A program made the position numbers and the translations under genes. DNA of 34,281 nt, taken from Candidatus Borkfalkia faecavium. GTDB taxonomy: Bacteria; Bacillota; Clostridia; Christensenellales; Borkfalkiaceae. Where the stretch lies: positions 1-34,281 of the forward strand of contig DXEW01000023.1 in NCBI GenBank assembly GCA_019114755.1. The letters run 5' to 3'. How positions within the stretch are numbered: position 1 is the stretch's first letter; every line of letters starts with the position of its first letter. The notes under the pieces are model-generated. The model did no database searches. It saw only the letters and a program-made list of their open reading frames with translations, and had not been told where the DNA came from. Below are positions 1 through 22,866 of the stretch, one piece after another.

Positions 1-135
1 CGCAGAGGGGAGAAACCGTTGCAGAGCCGCCGTAGGGCGGCGAACAACAGGTTTCCCCCTTCCTCACGGAAAATTCTTTTGTCAGCTCAAAAGAATTTTC
101 GTGAATTCATTCGCGCCGAGATTTTCGTGAACCAT
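1..135 (-). repeat. Four-hairpin element, 5' part, cut by window edge
   Basis: Read on the minus strand this is the start of the structured repeat that recurs through the window. Hairpin 1 has arms at 64-80 and 89-103 (TCACG plus an AT-rich arm) around the conserved GAGCTGAC loop. It is followed by the AACCTGTTG linker, the small GCCGCC/GGCGGC hairpin 2 and the CAACGGTTTC linker before the sequence runs off the left edge. It is nearly identical to the copy at 9121-9224. A second, partial TTCACGAAAATCTC start at 105-135 suggests one copy inserted next to or into another. No gene is visible here. Confidence 0.75.
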
Positions 136-4870: not shown

Positions 4871-5024
4871 AAAGCATTCATCGCGAAATACTGTGTCAGG
4901 CTTGCGTTTTGCTTCGGGTTACGTACGTCTGTGTACGCGCCCCTCGCAAATCCGCGCCTTCCTTGTCTTTCGCGCGACTGCTTTCCAATCCACCGGAAAG
5001 GATATCAAATCAACAACGCTGAAG
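4871..5024 (+). other. Gene-free spacer, repeat-like
   Basis: No coding feature is seen between tsaB and the hydrolase. The stretch (TGTGTCAGGCTTGCG, TTACGTACGTCTGTGTACG, CGCGCGACTGCTTTCC) has the texture of dispersed intergenic repeats, but no second copy occurs in this window. It is followed directly by the isolated hairpin at 5025-5070. Confidence 0.4.
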
Positions 5025-5070
5025 AGTTCTCACAATTTCTTTCGTCAGCTCGAAAAAAATTGTGAGAACT
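5025..5070 (-). repeat. Solitary hairpin 1 of the four-hairpin element
   Basis: Two 20-nt arms (AGTTCTCACAATTTCTTTCG at 5025-5044 and its complement at 5051-5070, one mismatch) flank TCAGCT. With the adjoining bases the loop reads GAGCTGAC on the minus strand, the same conserved loop seen in the longer copies. Only this hairpin is present, so it is a fragment or a minimal form. It lies in the leader of the downstream hydrolase and could also affect its expression. Confidence 0.8.
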
Positions 5071-5129
5071 TGGTTGTGTTGCGGCGTCGGCACAAAAGAA
5101 GGCGATAGATCGTTTTTCGGAGGTCGTGC

Positions 5130-5971: not shown

Positions 5972-6406
5972 ATGCTTTACCGTACATGGACGTATGCCGA
6001 CATCGGCGAAATTGCGGCGCTCGAACAGCAGTGCTTTTCCGATCCGTGGAGCTTCCAGATGCTCGCCGACAGCTTTATCAGCCCCAATACCGCCACCATC
6101 GCCGCCGAAGAGGGGGGCGAGGTGGTAGGCTATGCCTTTTTGACGGGCATCGCCGGCGAGGAGGCGGATCTTGCCAACATCGCCGTAGACGCGCGCTGCC
6201 GCGGGCGGGGCGTGGGGGGCGAACTGCTGCGCCGTTTAGAAGAGCGCGCGCGGCAGCTGGGGGTGCGCCGCATCTTTTTGGAAGTGCGCGTCTCCAATGC
6301 CGACGCCATGCTGCTGTACCTGCGCCACGGCTATGTCGGCAAGTACGTTCGCCCCCGCTACTACGGCGACGGCGAAGACGCCGTGGTGATGGGGAAGGAG
6401 ATATAG
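5972..6406 (+). CDS. rimI: RimI-like GNAT N-acetyltransferase
   Basis: GNAT-fold enzyme transferring acetyl from acetyl-CoA to an amine; the classic RimI target is the N-terminal alanine of ribosomal protein S18. The 144-aa product opens like RimI (RTWTYADIGEIAALEQQCFSDPW), has the acetyl-CoA loop RCRGRGVG (about 71-78) after the strand ANIAVD, and ends with FLEVRVSNADAMLLYLRHGY, the usual RimI finish. AAGGGA at 5960-5965 supports ATG 5972. RimI commonly neighbours TsaB/TsaE in Bacillota, which agrees with the context. The substrate assignment is by family and neighbourhood, not by any unique residue. Confidence 0.88.
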   Translation: MLYRTWTYADIGEIAALEQQCFSDPWSFQMLADSFISPNTATIAAEEGGEVVGYAFLTGIAGEEADLANIAVDARCRGRGVGGELLRRLEERARQLGVRRIFLEVRVSNADAMLLYLRHGYVGKYVRPRYYGDGEDAVVMGKEI

Positions 6407-6413
6407 GAAATGC

Positions 6414-6630
6414 GGTTCACGCGTTCCTCTGCAGGCTGCTGCCTGCGGAACGCCGTGATTTGAAGAAAACCCCATTGTCCGCGCTTGCAGCTCGGAGCAA
6501 TCGGAGTTTTCCTCTTTGCGCGGCGATTTAAGGGCTCTCGTTTATAAACGCCGCGCAAATTCACCTTTCCTGCGGGCAGCTCCCCGCTGTAGGGTGAAAA
6601 AGGCAAAAGCGTGGTTTTGCCTTTTTCGAG
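6414..6630 (+). repeat. Four-hairpin element, copy A
   Basis: Full-length copy. Hairpin 1 (6415-6460) pairs TTCACGCGTTCC with GGAACGCCGTGA. Linker AAGAAAACCCC and its partner GGAGTTTTCCTC enclose a short variable hairpin 2. Hairpin 3 pairs TTTGCGCGGC (6515-6524) with GCCGCGCAAA (6550-6559) around a 25-nt loop containing AAGGGCTCTC and TTATAAA. TTCACCTTTCC follows. Hairpin 4 pairs AAAAAGGCAAAA (6597-6608) with TTTTGCCTTTTT (6615-6626) around GCGTGG. It begins only 8 bp after the rimI stop, so hairpin 4 could also serve as that gene's terminator. Confidence 0.85.
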
Positions 6631-6664: not shown

Positions 6665-6779
6665 TAGGGCTCCCGAAAATCGCAGCGAAGCGAGATTTTT
6701 GGGAAGAGGAGCGGCAGGCGCAACAGGCGAGGCGGCAAGCATAGTGAGCCGCCTGCCATAGCGCCTTGGCGCGACGAGG
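6665..6779 (+). repeat. Repeat module 2, forward copy
   Basis: About 115 bp from AGGGCTCCCGAAAATCGCAG to GCGCGACGAGG. It recurs inverted at 9227-9341 with close to 90% identity by eye. It contains small palindromes (for example around CGCAGCGAAGCG) but no convincing reading frame. It follows copy A of the four-hairpin element and appears to be part of a composite repeat cluster. From 6790 to 6891 the spacer holds another palindromic stretch (GCGCTTCGCGC, CTTCCCCCTAAGGGGGAAG). Confidence 0.75.
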
Positions 6780-6891: not shown

Positions 6892-7421
6892 GTGTTCGGA
6901 ATGGCTTTAACGTTCTACACAAGATCCCTCGACTGACGCTCGGGATGACAAGGACGGTTTTGTTTTCAGAGATCCTTCGATGCGTGCGGCTTCGCCGCAC
7001 TTACTCAGGATGACAGGGCTGGGGGGCACTTCGTTCCTCAGGATGACAAGAAGGGGGGCTCCTTCTTCGCTTCGCTCCTCAGGATGACAGGTGGGAGCCT
7101 TTTTTGAAACCGTCCAAAATTTTACATTTTACATTTTACATTTTACATTTTTTACCGTGTTCGGAACGGGTAACTGTTCTACACAAGATCCCTCGACTGG
7201 CGCTCGGGATGACAAGGACGGTATTGTTTTCAGAGATCCTACGATGCGTGCGGCTTCGCCGCACTTACTCAGGATGACAGGGCTGGGGGCACTTCGTTCC
7301 TCAGGATGACAAGAAGGGGGGCTCCTTCGTCGCTTCGCTCCTCAGGATGACAGGTGGGAGCCTTTTTTGAAACCGTCCAAAATTTTACATTTTACATTCT
7401 ACATTTTACATTTTATTTTAC
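6892..7421 (+). repeat. Tandem duplication of a ~265-bp repeat block
   Basis: Two head-to-tail copies, 6892-7156 and 7157-7421, differ at only a few positions. Each unit starts GTGTTCGGAA, contains imperfect palindromes of the GATCCCTCG...CGCTCGGGATGAC and CTCAGGATGACA type, reads GGGAGCCTTTTTTGAAACCGTCC and ends in a TTTTACA satellite. A shorter related copy lies inverted at about 17560-17625. No gene is encoded. The second copy ends about 70 bp before the MurF-like gene. Confidence 0.9.
7119..7153 (+). repeat. 7-bp TTTTACA satellite
   Basis: Four or more tandem TTTTACA units ending the first 265-bp block. Related arrays with TTCTACA and TTTACCA variants lie at 7380-7425, 9427-9480, 12150-12203 and 22834-22866, always between genes. 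They are not CRISPR, as the unit is short and has no spacers. Confidence 0.85.
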
Positions 7422-7489
7422 ACTTTTCCTTTACTCACGATCAGGTCAATTACTCACAAAAAATTTTCGGCAAGGAGCTGAACAGGCTT

Positions 7490-9120: not shown

Positions 9121-9224
9121 GTTCACGAAAATTCTTTTGAGCTGACAAAAGAATTTTCCGTGAGACAGGGGGAAACCTGTTGTTCGCCGCCCTACGGCGG
9201 CTCTGCAACGGTTTCACCCCTCGC
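9121..9224 (+). repeat. Four-hairpin element, truncated copy E
   Basis: Hairpin 1 (TTCACGAAAATTCTTTT, loop GAGCTGAC, AAAAGAATTTTCCGTGA; 9122-9163), linker GGGGGAAACCTGTTG, hairpin 2 (GCCGCC-CTAC-GGCGGC) and linker CAACGGTTTCACCCC. The copy stops where hairpin 3 should begin and is joined to inverted repeat module 2. It lies five bases after the murF stop. Confidence 0.85.
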
Positions 9225-9226
9225 CG

Positions 9227-9341
9227 CCTCGTCGCATCAAGGCGCCAAAGCAGGCGGCGCGCTATGCTTGCCGCCTTGCCCGCTGCGCCTGCCGCTCCTC
9301 TTTCCCAAAAATCTCGCTCCGCTGCGATTTTCGGGAGCCCT
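9227..9341 (-). repeat. Repeat module 2, inverted copy
   Basis: Reverse complement of the module at 6665-6779, with scattered differences. It abuts truncated copy E on its left. The remaining spacer (9342-9558) holds two TTTTACA/TTCTACA stretches (about 9377-9390 inverted and 9427-9480) and the ribosome site of ddl. No gene is seen. Confidence 0.75.
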
Positions 9342-9558
9342 GTTTTTCCGCGCAGTCGAACGGGTCTTATCAAAATGTAGAATGTAAAGTTGAGGACGAA
9401 TTGAAAAATGTTTTAATCTTTCCAAAATTTTACATTCTACATTTACCATATACAATTCTACACTTTACATGCAAGGCAAAGCCTTTCGGCTTTTCATTCT
9501 ACATTCAAAAAACCATCGGCAGCACCAAAGCGAAAAATTTTTCAGCGGAGGTGCTTTT

Positions 9559-11761: not shown

Positions 11762-12122
11762 AAGTTCTCACAATTTCTTTCGAGCTGACGAAAGAAATTG
11801 TCGAGAGGAAGGGGGAAACCTGTTGTTCACCGCCTATGCGGCGGCTCTGCAACGGTTTCTCCCCTCGCCGCGCGGCATTTAGGGGCACACCAGTTATAGA
11901 ACGCCGCGCGGCTTCACCCTCATCCGTATGCTTATAAGGGAAAAAAGGAAAAAGCGTCGTTTTTCCTTTTTTTGCGTATTTGTTTGGAATAAAAATGCCG
12001 CGCCTTCACCTTTCCTGCAAAAGCCGCAGGTATGCGGCAAATGGGGTGCGCTTACCGAAAGGCGCGGCTTTCGGACGCGCAGAAATTGTTTGCAAAAGGG
12101 AAAAACGTCGATTTCCATTTTT
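11762..12122 (+). repeat. Four-hairpin element, copy D plus an extra 3' part
   Basis: Full copy: hairpin 1 (ACAATTTCTTTC with GAAAGAAATTGT around the GAGCTGAC loop, about 11770-11801), linkers GGGGGAAACCTGTTG and CAACGGTTTCTCCCC around a small hairpin 2, hairpin 3 (GCCGCGCGGC at 11867-11876 and 11903-11912, 26-nt loop with AGGGGCACAC and TTATAGAA), TTCACC and hairpin 4 (AAAAAAGGAAAAA at 11941-11953, GCGTCG, TTTTTCCTTTTTT). A second 3' segment follows at about 12001-12122: TTCACCTTTCC plus a decayed hairpin 4 (GGGAAAAACGTCGATTTCC). It occupies most of the 488-bp gap before the next gene. Confidence 0.82.
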
Positions 12123-12149
12123 TCCTTATTTATTTTAAGGCGTCCAAAA

Positions 12150-12203
12150 TTTTACATTTTACATTTTACATTCTACATTCACCATTCACCATTTATCATT
12201 TTC
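12150..12203 (+). repeat. TTTTACA-type satellite
   Basis: Tandem TTTTACA, TTCTACA and TTCACCA units directly after the four-hairpin copy D and just before the ribosome site of the next gene. It has the same order (element, then satellite) as at 22567-22866. Confidence 0.75.
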
Positions 12204-17780: not shown

Positions 17781-17859
17781 GGGAAGCTCAAGGGAAGCTC
17801 AAGGGAAGCTCAAGGGAAGCTCAAGGGAAGCCCAAGGGGAAGCCCAAGGGGAAATTCAA
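17781..17859 (+). repeat. 11-bp tandem repeat in the regulator leader
   Basis: Five 11-bp units (four identical GGGAAGCTCAA, then GGGAAGCCCAA), followed by two 12-bp variants (GGGGAAGCCCAA, GGGGAAATTCAA). The array lies in the 5' leader, 39 bp before the ATG at 17898. The 11-bp period is close to one DNA helical turn. It is too short for CRISPR. It could be slippage-prone, or give phased protein or RNA contacts. Confidence 0.95.
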
Positions 17860-21089: not shown

Positions 21090-22298
21090 ATGGCTAAAAT
21101 TGCGATGAAGAACCCCGTCGTCGAAATGGACGGCGACGAAATGACCCGCATCCTCTGGCAGTGGATCAAAGAAGACCTCATCTGCCCCTATGTGGACCTG
21201 AAAACGGAGTATTACGACTTGGGTTTGCCCAACCGCGACGCCACCGACGACAAGGTGACCGTCGAGGCGGCGGAAGCCAACAAAAAGTATAAGGTGGGCG
21301 TCAAGTGCGCCACCATCACCCCCAACGCCCAGCGGGTGGAGGAGTACCGCCTCAAACAGATGTGGAAGAGCCCCAACGGCACCATCCGCCGCATCTTAGA
21401 CGGCACCGTGTTCCGCGCCCCCATCCTCGCCAAGGGCATCACCCCCTATATCCCCGGCTGGAAAAAGCCCATCATCCTCGCCCGTCACGCCTATGGCGAC
21501 GTGTATTCGGGCGTGGAAACGCGCACCTCTGCAGGCGATAAGGCGTACCTCGTCATCGAAGACGGGGAGGGCGGCGTCAAAGAAAAGCTCCTGGTGCAGG
21601 ATTTCAAAAACGGCGGCGGCATCGTGCAGGCGGTGCACAACCTCGATGCTTCCATCGCAAGTTTTGCCCGTTCCTGCTTCAATTACGCCCTGGACGTGAA
21701 GATGCCCCTGTGGTTTGCCACCAAAGACACCATCTCGAAAAAGTACGACCACCGCTTCAAGGATATCTTTGCCGATATCTACGCCCGCGAATATCAGGAT
21801 AAGTTTGAAAAGGCGGGCATCGAATACATGTACACCCTCATCGACGACGCCGTAGCGCGCGTGGTCCGCTCGGAAGGCGGCATCCTCTGGGCGTGCAAGA
21901 ACTACGACGGCGACGTGATGAGCGACATGGTCGCCACCGCCTACGGCTCGCTGGGGCTGATGAGCTCCGTGCTCGTCTCGCCCGACGGCAATTACGAGTT
22001 TGAGGCGGCGCACGGCACCGTCACCCGCCACTATTATAAGCATCTGAAGGGGGAAGAGACGTCTACCAACTCCGTCGCCACCATCTTCGCCTGGACGGGC
22101 GCCCTCGCCAAGCGCGGCGAACTGGACGGCACGCCCGACCTCGTCCTGTTTGCCAAAAAGCTGGAAGAGGCCACCGTGCGCACCATCGAAGAAGGGGAAA
22201 TGACGGGCGATCTCATCCCGCTCTTCCACGCCGAGGGCATCGCGCCCAAAAAGCTCTCCTCCCGCGCCTTCTTGCAGGCCGTAGCGGCGAGGATGTGA
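21090..22298 (+). CDS. icd: NADP-dependent isocitrate dehydrogenase, homodimeric eukaryote-like type
   Basis: Converts isocitrate to 2-oxoglutarate and CO2 with NADP reduction in the cytoplasm. The 402-aa product begins [19 protein letters not shown] and has [23 protein letters not shown] (substrate-binding Ser/Asn region), GTVFRAPI, the metal-binding Asp cluster around [11 protein letters not shown] and [12 protein letters not shown], and [11 protein letters not shown] near the cofactor. The length and motifs match the subfamily that includes mitochondrial and cytosolic IDH, not the E. coli type. AAAAAAGGAG (about 21074-21083) sets ATG 21090. It is monocistronic, between the efflux operon and a repeat cluster. 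No other TCA-cycle gene is in the window, so a biosynthetic role (glutamate supply) is possible. Confidence 0.96.
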
Positions 22299-22303
22299 CA
22301 CTT

Positions 22304-22510
22304 TTCACGAAAATCTCGGCAGGATGCTGCCTGCGATTTTCCGTGATTTGAAGAAAACCCCGCGGGGCGCCGTACGGCTAGCCGCGGGGTTTCCCTCTGT
22401 GCCGCGCGATTGGGGGCACGCCTTTTATAAATGCGCGGCACATTCACCTTTCCTCGTGCAGCTCCTCGCTGTAAAGTGAAAAAGGCAAAAGTGTGATTTT
22501 GCCTTTTTCG
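22304..22510 (+). repeat. Four-hairpin element, copy B
   Basis: Complete copy starting six bases after icd. Hairpin 1 TTCACGAAAATC...GATTTTCCGTGA (22304-22346); hairpin 2 AAACCCCGCGG/CCGCGGGGTTT; hairpin 3 TGTGCCGCGC (22398-22407) with GCGCGGCACA (22433-22442), loop of 25 nt with GGGGGCACGCC and TTATAAA; TTCACCTTTCC; hairpin 4 AAAAAGGCAAAA (22479-22490), GTGTGA, TTTTGCCTTTTT (22497-22508). Hairpin 4 or hairpin 2 may double as the icd terminator. Confidence 0.88.
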
Positions 22511-22523
22511 AGTGTTAATTTTA

Positions 22524-22560
22524 AGTTCTCACAATTTCTTTTGAGCTGACATTATTCACG
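22524..22560 (+). repeat. Fragments of hairpin 1 between copies B and C
   Basis: AGTTCTCACAATTTCTTTTGAGCTGAC (left arm and loop of hairpin 1) is present without its right arm, then ATTATTCACGAAAAAA, the start of another hairpin 1. Copy C follows. This looks like nested or illegitimate joining of element ends. Confidence 0.7.
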
Positions 22561-22566
22561 AAAAAA

Positions 22567-22795
22567 GTTCACGCGTTCCTCGGCGAGCTGACGCCTGCGG
22601 AACGCCGTGATTTGAGGAAAACCCCAACCAAAACGCGCTATCGGCAGATAGCGCGTTTTCTGTTCGGAGTTTTCCTCGGCGGTGCGCATTTGGGGGCACA
22701 CTATTGTAAAACGCGCACCGCCTTCACCTTTCCCGCAAGAGCGCTGCCGCGCAAATTGAGTGCGCGGGCGCAAAAGCGTGGTTTTGCTTGCGCGA
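22567..22795 (+). repeat. Four-hairpin element, copy C
   Basis: Complete copy. Hairpin 1 GTTCACGCGTTCC...GGAACGCCGTGAT around GAGCTGAC (22567-22611); linker GAGGAAAACCCC pairs with GGAGTTTTCCTC; hairpin 2 AAAACGCGCTATC (22630-22642) with GATAGCGCGTTTT (22647-22659), 13 bp perfect; hairpin 3 GGCGGTGCGC (22678-22687) with GCGCACCGCC (22713-22722), 25-nt loop with GGGGGCACACT and TTGTAAAA; TTCACCTTTCC; hairpin 4 GCAAAA-GCGTGG-TTTTGC (22770-22787). A TTTTACA satellite follows at 22834-22866. Confidence 0.9.
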
Positions 22796-22833
22796 GGATT
22801 ATTTAGAATAAAATATTTTTATTTCATCCTAAA

Positions 22834-22866
22834 TTTTACATTTTACATTCTACATTTACCATTTAT
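22834..22866 (+). repeat. TTTTACA satellite after copy C
   Basis: TTTTACA, TTTTACA, TTCTACA and TTTACCA in tandem, about 40 bp after hairpin 4 of copy C. Confidence 0.8.

Follow-up and report, generated by a model that had tools for sequence, protein, structure and literature searches.

An element built of four hairpins recurs between genes on one contig, with stems that differ among copies, raising the question of whether it acts as an RNA, as a mobile DNA or as a protein-binding site. The DNA analysed here (the window) is an entire contig of 34,281 bases from a 1.73-Mb, 38-contig metagenome-assembled genome (MAG) that is ~90% complete. An earlier note on the window left all three possibilities open. 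The evidence gathered here favours DNA, because the stems show two-sided changes almost without G-U states, the neighbouring gene can lie in either orientation relative to a copy, and the fourth hairpin is variably terminator-like.

Copies of the element in the window

Four full copies, all on the plus strand, have outer hairpin limits of 6416-6627, 11765-11972, 22304-22509 and 22568-22794, so the earlier coordinates were essentially right. A covariance model of hairpin 3 (HP3) and the following linker matched these copies with E values between 2e-16 and 2e-15, far ahead of the next match at 0.15, and their recovery is partly circular since two of the four were used for training.

The two copies that lie side by side illustrate the layout. 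In the first, HP1 (22304-22346) begins 5 nt past a stop codon ending at 22298, HP2 (22350-22397) has a purine-rich 5' arm GAAGAAAACCCC, an inner hairpin and a pyrimidine 3' arm ending in TTTCCCTC, and HP3 (22398-22442) has a 10-bp stem TGTGCCGCGC and a 25-nt loop. The linker TTCACCTTTCC (22443-22453), the proposed third strand on HP2, leads towards HP4 (22478-22509), which is terminator-like and has the apical sequence GTGTGA. The second copy follows two truncated HP1 scars (22523-22567) and consists of HP1 (22568-22610), HP2 (22614-22677, arms GAGGAAAACC / GTTTTCCTC around a long inner hairpin), HP3 (22678-22722, stem GGCGGTGCGC), a linker that is again the proposed third strand (22723-22733) and an HP4 of GCGC type (22762-22794) that was not called terminator-like. 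When two copies were folded as RNA, stability was far above shuffled sequences (z -6.5 and -6.4), and folding the 22567-22795 copy as DNA gave z -9.1 for the minus strand and -7.3 for the plus strand.

The 6416 copy lies 9 nt beyond a stop codon ending at 6406 and comprises HP1 (6416-6458), HP2 (6462-6514), HP3 (6515-6559), the linker (6560-6570) and HP4 (6596-6627). The 11765 copy belongs to a different subfamily (HP1 11765-11806, HP2 11807-11866, HP3 11867-11912, linker 11913-11923, HP4 11941-11972) and appears to split a second copy, of which the 3' half from the HP3 loop onward remains at 11988-12110 (plus strand). Partial copies consist of HP1 and HP2 at 9122-9222 (plus strand), where HP3 is interrupted by another repeat from 9228, and at 1-105 (minus strand), where the contig end cuts the element. 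A solo HP1 at 5024-5071 (minus strand) is without the usual bulge.

The stems of HP3 quoted earlier for the four copies are correct and fully complementary, and other sequence motifs ascribed to all four were found in only some. The loop cores GGGGCAC and TTATAAA are conserved in part, with GGGCTC in the 6416 copy, TTGTAAA in the 22568 copy and TTATAGA in the 11765 copy. HP1 closure by TTCACG...CGTGA fails for the 11765 copy, which has TCTC/GAGA and not TCACG/CGTGA, the 6416 and 22304 copies carry GGCTGCTG/GGATGCTG instead of GAGCTGAC, and the pairing linkers GAGGAAAACCCC/GGAGTTTTCCTC are a feature of the 22568 copy. The first reading had not included the mirror covariation between HP2 and linker, the one-base bulge of HP1, the adjacency to stop codons or the mosaic of subfamilies, which are described below.

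Several other features share the window. A second, two-hairpin repeat (CTCGTCG...CCTCTTTCCCAAAAATCTCGC...GCGATTTTCGGGAGCCCT) lies at 6666-6779 (minus strand) and 9227-9341 (plus strand), occurs also in stretches L010, L012, L018 and L027, and lies recurrently within HP3 of four-hairpin elements. Units of ATTTTACATTTTACATT / CATTTACCATTTA form short arrays at 7100-7428, 9427-9466, 12149-12188 and 22814-22863, in many cases directly downstream of elements. A tandem duplication at 6912-7414, whose units recur every 263-264 bp and are 97-98% identical, is made of repeats of the CAGAGATCC...CAGGATGACA type, and an 11-bp tandem repeat, GGGAAGCTCAA, is present in several copies at 17781-17849. An Rfam scan also placed an FMN riboswitch at 2693-2810 (RF00050, 103 bits) and, where the contig ends (34186-34281), the first part of an LSU rRNA gene.

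Anatomy of the element

From 191 stretches of DNA (1.15 Mb) we extracted 178 distinct copies bearing HP3. The element is about 200-230 nt long with the layout HP1-HP2-HP3-TTCAC-HP4. HP1 has a 4-bp basal stem (TCAC/GTGA, TCGG/CCGA, TCTC/GAGA, TCGC/GCGA or TCGT/ACGA), and above it a one-base bulge (C or T) in the 3' strand, an upper stem of 12 bp and a tip centred on GCTG. Among 65 copies counted, the upper stem took 40 different forms and the matched basal pairs were of five types; this count took in one type of HP1 and left out a second type with an internal loop. The one-base 3' bulge geometry gave 55 perfect 16/16 stems among 70 candidates, compared to 2 of 10 for the unbulged geometry and 1 for all other geometries tried, taken together. 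Wobbles in HP1 were more often G.T (8) than A.C (4), partly owing to chimeric copies. Such chimeras, which combine 5' and 3' arms of different types, were seen at L053:927, L059:2935 and L060:251, and are likely traces of recombination between copies.

HP2 consists of a 5' purine-rich arm and a 3' pyrimidine arm enclosing a variable inner hairpin, and in one subfamily is reduced to GAGGGC-TCT-GCCCTC. A C.T mismatch in HP2 is retained in 46 of the 63 copies scored. HP3 abuts HP2 without a spacer, has a 10-11 bp stem that occurs in 47 versions, and its loop, built around GGGGCAC...TTATAAA, is more conserved than its stem. Past HP3 come TTCAC, a pyrimidine run and a variable region, and then HP4 with apical GCGTGG or GTGTGA. 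The second and sixth apical bases of HP4 covary (C-G 83, T-A 74 and C.A 2, from 159 of 178 copies), in a search whose pattern admitted solely C or T with G or A. Pair classes in the HP4 stem (91 G.T, 24 A.C) were set aside, as they were counted in a fixed 12-bp register that is incorrect for GCGC-type hairpins. A possible pairing between the linker and a GxGTG ahead of HP4 was also considered and set aside on inspection by eye. Subfamilies are distinguished by HP2 and the linker, with HP1, HP3 and HP4 types mixed among them.

Compensatory change in HP3

Many further copies with compensatory pairs were found, and they uphold the compensatory change that had been read from four stems. In 83 distinct aligned copies, a set selected for at least 8 of 10 pairs, 98.3% of 830 HP3 stem cells were paired and all ten pairs had changed two-sidedly, with 313 two-sided cells versus 1 one-sided cell (a wobble) and 14 unpaired. 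The covariation score for these copies was 0.954, compared to 0.242 after shuffling and at most 0.217 after sliding. Without selection for pairing, a model search, which favours its own structure, returned 144 hits in 84 stretches (141 distinct), in which 1362 of 1403 cells were Watson-Crick (97.1%) and 114 copies were perfect; the exceptions were G.T in 9 cells, A.C in 13 and other combinations in 19. A regular expression retrieved 121 copies with 47 distinct arms and 1172/1210 Watson-Crick cells (G.T 4, A.C 10), in a set that includes two poor rows (L020 and L160) and is only partly blind to the stem, as 70 of the 121 left boundaries were ambiguous and the better-pairing choice was taken.

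The element's structure is nearly certainly under selection, a conclusion that rests on the 178 distinct copies and the HP3 tests, since the four window copies alone are no proof. In covarying RNA helices, one-sided G-U states are common. Because such intermediates are nearly absent from HP3, we read this stem as a DNA-level structure, and the element likely acts as DNA rather than RNA.

A mirror relation between HP2 and the linker

The linker (TTCAC and the pyrimidine run) covaries with the pyrimidine arm of HP2 as its mirror, not as its complement. Arm/linker pairs across subfamilies include TTCTCCCTC with TTCACCCTCTT, TTTTCTCTC with TTCACTCTTTC, and GTTTTCCTC with TTCACCTTTCC. For 42 distinct arm/linker pairs the mirror score was 4.29 of 6 versus 3.37 expected (z 7.2-7.3, 0 of 5000), and none of the direct, reverse-complement or complement relations was raised in the same pairs. 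The signal was clear in a single register, with z at most 2.0 at other registers, and after collapse to 11 distinct 4-mers the relation was still present at 3.09 of 4 versus 2.27 (1 of 20,000). Arm/linker covariation falls largely between subfamilies, leaving few independent events.

Simple duplication makes no mirror repeat, and such a repeat is required for a Hoogsteen third strand. The order expected of an intrastrand triplex, in which purine strand, pyrimidine strand and third strand follow one another and the last two are mirror-symmetric, is found in these elements, and the geometry allows it: HP2 can stack on HP3, from which the strand emerges in parallel orientation to the purine arm of HP2. 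Judged from covariation, an intrastrand triple helix in the element is probable. About one-third of the scored positions 4-9 are noncanonical for a triplex, and one subfamily mirrors a G outside both triplex codes.

Which strand would fold in this way is less clear, as the covariation fits both codes alike (pyrimidine z 6.0, purine z 5.5-5.6). The order purine, pyrimidine, Hoogsteen strand is assigned to class III, and the class I purine motif is stated to be unable to form in RNA, in excerpts from Holder et al. (PMC4666352). The given strand has the class III order, and its complement would form a class I purine-motif intrastrand triplex. Linker base 4 is A in 137 and G in 3 of 140 model hits, which still favour TTCAC, and the arm has T opposite in all; this A is noncanonical in the pyrimidine motif, whereas a purine-motif triplex of the other strand would have a canonical T.A-T triplet here. 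At HP1 pair 12 of copies from a second family, A.C (G.T on the other strand) recurs, the only result used from an HP1 count that mixes both strands and chance matches. Together with the stabler minus-strand fold of one copy, these observations hint weakly at the complementary strand as the one that works, and the excess of G.T over A.C wobbles in HP1 speaks against it. A search of the open-licence PMC literature, a partial body, found no earlier case of covariation evidence for a natural DNA triplex.

Distribution among genomes

The genome of the window holds at least 60 copies, and blastn with one copy gave 56 matches there, some of which cover only part of the element or hit the same palindrome in reverse. 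A covariance model (R1) was positive in 35 of 61 relatives, comprising 34 of 37 in the genus and one genome of another family (G023). With 86 candidates scored per genome, copies within the genus ranged from 0 to at least 85 (at least 85 in G012 and in G047, at least 80 in G017), and the R1 search found zero copies in congeners G001, G004 and G045. When 148 genomes sampled from the class were searched, the window's own among them, copies were found in the own genome only. Around G023, five of six genomes of its genus were positive, as was G231 from another genus of the window's family, and 0 of 18 genomes from other genera of G023's family had copies. The element is thus present in a second genus of its own family and in a second family of the order, and is patchy beyond the genus. 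Among the pattern matches listed in public genomes, most were to MAGs labelled Candidatus Borkfalkia or 'uncultured Clostridia', and some chance hits fell in other taxa. A Clostridia source is thereby supported, and the host is probably of Candidatus Borkfalkia type, a genus assigned to Christensenellales. Viral contigs searched for the exact HP1 pattern gave 0 matches, and a blastn search of phage and plasmid sequences with one copy also gave 0.

Copies from the second family (genus g6) keep the layout HP1-HP2-HP3-TTCAC-HP4, and their loops and stems differ. There, 5 rows from two genomes (3 distinct places) have the arm/linker pair TTTTCTCTC with TTCACTCTTTC, and 3 rows (2 places) have TTTTCCCCTC with TTCACCCCTTT; the commonest pair of this genus would need one more C in its linker to be a perfect mirror. 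In stretches L245-L262 of genome G211, which lies outside the window's family, copies otherwise alike differ in the HP1 stem in a largely compensated manner, as if HP1 diversified fastest in these copies.

Genomic context and movement

Gene context was taken from a simple gene caller for 162 copies with a recognised HP1, none of which lay inside a called gene. The HP1 side follows a stop codon in 106 copies, at a median of 7.5 nt and within 15 nt in 66 of them, and faces a gene start in 41 of 147 copies, at a median of 72 nt and within 30 nt in 18. Orientation to the upstream gene is therefore biased towards sense (106:41), with both orientations occurring. On the HP4 side only 3 of 149 copies come within 30 nt of a gene, and the next neighbour on that side (165 copies) was tail to tail in 44, head to tail in 30 and absent within 600 nt in 91.

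Synteny revealed empty orthologous sites in the pairs L089/L157, where the empty site is a 29-nt gap between cistrons, L085/L110 and L084/L149, and a weaker pair with a run of N (L080/L023); flank identity in these pairs is only 65-85%. No consistent target duplication was seen by eye at the empty-site pairs, where the 3' boundary of the element is imprecise. At the orthologous sites L041/L065 and L054/L066, genomes G015 and G018 carry different subfamilies behind upstream flanks that are 95.7% identical. Truncated HP1 scars lie ahead of complete copies, and an older copy can be split by another. Closest pairs among 41 copies of the own genome were 93.6% identical when dispersed and 96.8% when in tandem. 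Elements have thus moved or been overwritten, although nothing in the own genome suggests that they dispersed very recently, and dispersal as a mobile element is likely.

Search for a mobilising enzyme

No mobilising enzyme was found among the Y1, reverse transcriptase, Rep_trans and IS110 genes examined, with every such negative weakened by MAG incompleteness. PF01797 (Y1, IS200-like) occurs in 16 of 31 genomes and is absent from the window's own. Mobilisation by a RAYT/IS200 enzyme was rejected, as the presence of PF01797 was uncorrelated with elements in 19 genus members: G008, G002, G016 and G009 have no Y1 yet bear 65, 34, 24 and 12 copies, respectively, whereas G001, G004 and G003 have Y1 and 0, 0 and 1 copies, and other genomes, G012 and G017 among them, have both. 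In 8 stretches examined out of 30 places with a Y1_Tnp match, no HP1 or HP3 pattern lay nearby. Retro-mobility was set aside with RVT_1 in 4 of 40 congeners and absent from the own genome, as were Rep_trans (0/40) and IS110 (6/40). A gene-bearing, autonomous form was sought among the 10 of 50 HP1 copies in the own genome that lack HP3 within 190 nt, and no gene was seen in the following 230 nt; five of these ten carry the second repeat.

Comparison with known systems

The element matches no known RNA family, as first thought, with Rfam 15 giving no match at the gathering score over the window elements or in 14 stretches of relatives. A lenient scan produced five sub-threshold matches, the best (E 0.011) to mir-8499 with 25 of 100 bits. 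It was not recognised as a REP either: among copies of the window's family, GTAG is at the foot of HP1 in 3 of 162 and CGTC in 1 of 162, with neither at HP3.

MITEs, BOX, ERIC, Correia and RUP elements are non-coding, dispersed, modular, hairpin-forming and non-autonomous, and the element described here shares all these traits and differs in that its structure is kept by compensation. The attC sites of integrons are folded single-stranded DNA read by shape, with variable stems, conserved unpaired features and one active strand. The element resembles them, as far as these general traits go, in its conserved unpaired features and in a fold that may be read as single-stranded DNA. REP, BIME and REPIN sequences with their RAYT (TnpA_REP) are likewise intergenic, high-copy, palindromic and arranged in pairs; unlike REPs, which are 20-50 nt long, the element spans 200-230 nt with four hairpins and stems diversified wholesale. 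In the RAYT system, according to excerpts of PMC8266576 and PMC3733652, a folded single-stranded DNA hairpin with a conserved bulge is recognised.

The boxC/TMECO repeat, as portrayed in parts of PMC4666352, is also an intergenic repeat capable of an intrastrand triplex, and its motif is linked to local genome instability. TMECO is there a 37-nt, nearly invariant consensus with a class II purine motif, and the finder in that source allows loops of 1-6 nt, whereas here whole hairpins part the triplex strands and the strands covary. We found no description of these repeats in the open-licence PMC literature, which does not show their absence from print.

Weighing the explanations

With a probability of roughly 0.55, we propose that each copy, which encodes no protein, functions as a folded single strand of DNA and that the element was dispersed between genes by a trans-acting activity. 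HP2 and HP3 would stack, with the linker lying as a third strand in the major groove of HP2, and this fold would form once the strand is exposed during replication or transcription. The folded strand may then be recognised by an activity of the host or of a mobile element acting in trans, and the same activity may have dispersed the element into gaps between genes. Ectopic exchange among copies would shuffle the modules HP1, HP2 with linker, HP3 and HP4 and overwrite copies in place. We suggest more tentatively, as a possibility we would not yet bet on, that it represents a new class of genetic element, defined by a DNA tertiary fold of four hairpins and a purine-motif triple helix, compensated on three strands, spreading as a folded single strand and placed so that HP1 comes to lie next to stop codons and ribosome-binding sites.

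Some of the same observations fit a domesticated element, resembling BIMEs, that binds a host protein or marks gene borders, insulating or stabilising gene ends, with the spacing to stop codons arising by deletion of other spacers. The HP1 end abuts genes (66/106 within 15 nt of a stop) while the HP4 end does not (3/149 within 30 nt), loops are conserved, and the same site in sister species is filled by different subfamilies. We regard this as unlikely; the range of 0 to at least 85 copies among congeners and the empty orthologous sites speak against an essential role. Proximity to stop codons (median 7.5 nt) and the sense preference of 106 to 41 could also reflect a structured RNA, made as a 3'-UTR or small RNA from the upstream gene, with HP4 as terminator, as the terminator-like HP4 of copy 1 would allow, and a pyrimidine-motif triplex that protects or regulates the transcript. 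RNA can adopt pyrimidine-motif triplexes, according to an excerpt of PMC4666352, and the covariation fits that code as well as the purine code. An RNA nevertheless seems quite improbable, with 1 wobble against 313 two-sided changes in HP3 and G.T (9) no commoner than A.C (13), 41 of 147 copies facing a gene start, no terminator-like call for HP4 of copy 2, and a linker A (137/140) opposite the arm T that misfits the pyrimidine motif.

Correction of one arm by the other through template switching is known for quasi-palindromes, and passive palindromes, in which switching at hairpins copies arm onto arm with no selection for structure, would explain both two-sided change without wobble intermediates and stems that differ block-wise. 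Under such a process asymmetries would vanish, yet the 3' bulge of HP1 (55 perfect versus 2) and the C.T mismatch of HP2 (46/63) are kept, and the HP3 loop is better conserved than its stem. Arm correction is also unable to create the mirror between HP2 and linker or to keep the layout across two families, making this explanation very unlikely.

Implications

Arguments over whether DNA triplexes form in cells and have a role there have long drawn on sequence motifs and antibodies. Evolution may give an independent test, in the form of three strands changing together across subfamilies. These results also suggest that strong two-sided covariation alone need not mean RNA, and that structure at the DNA level can be told by a scarcity of G-U intermediates. 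If the reading as a folded DNA element is true, these copies would offer biophysics many naturally occurring triplex sequences and would point to a protein that reads folded single-stranded DNA, and part of the intergenic DNA in common gut Clostridia would be explained.
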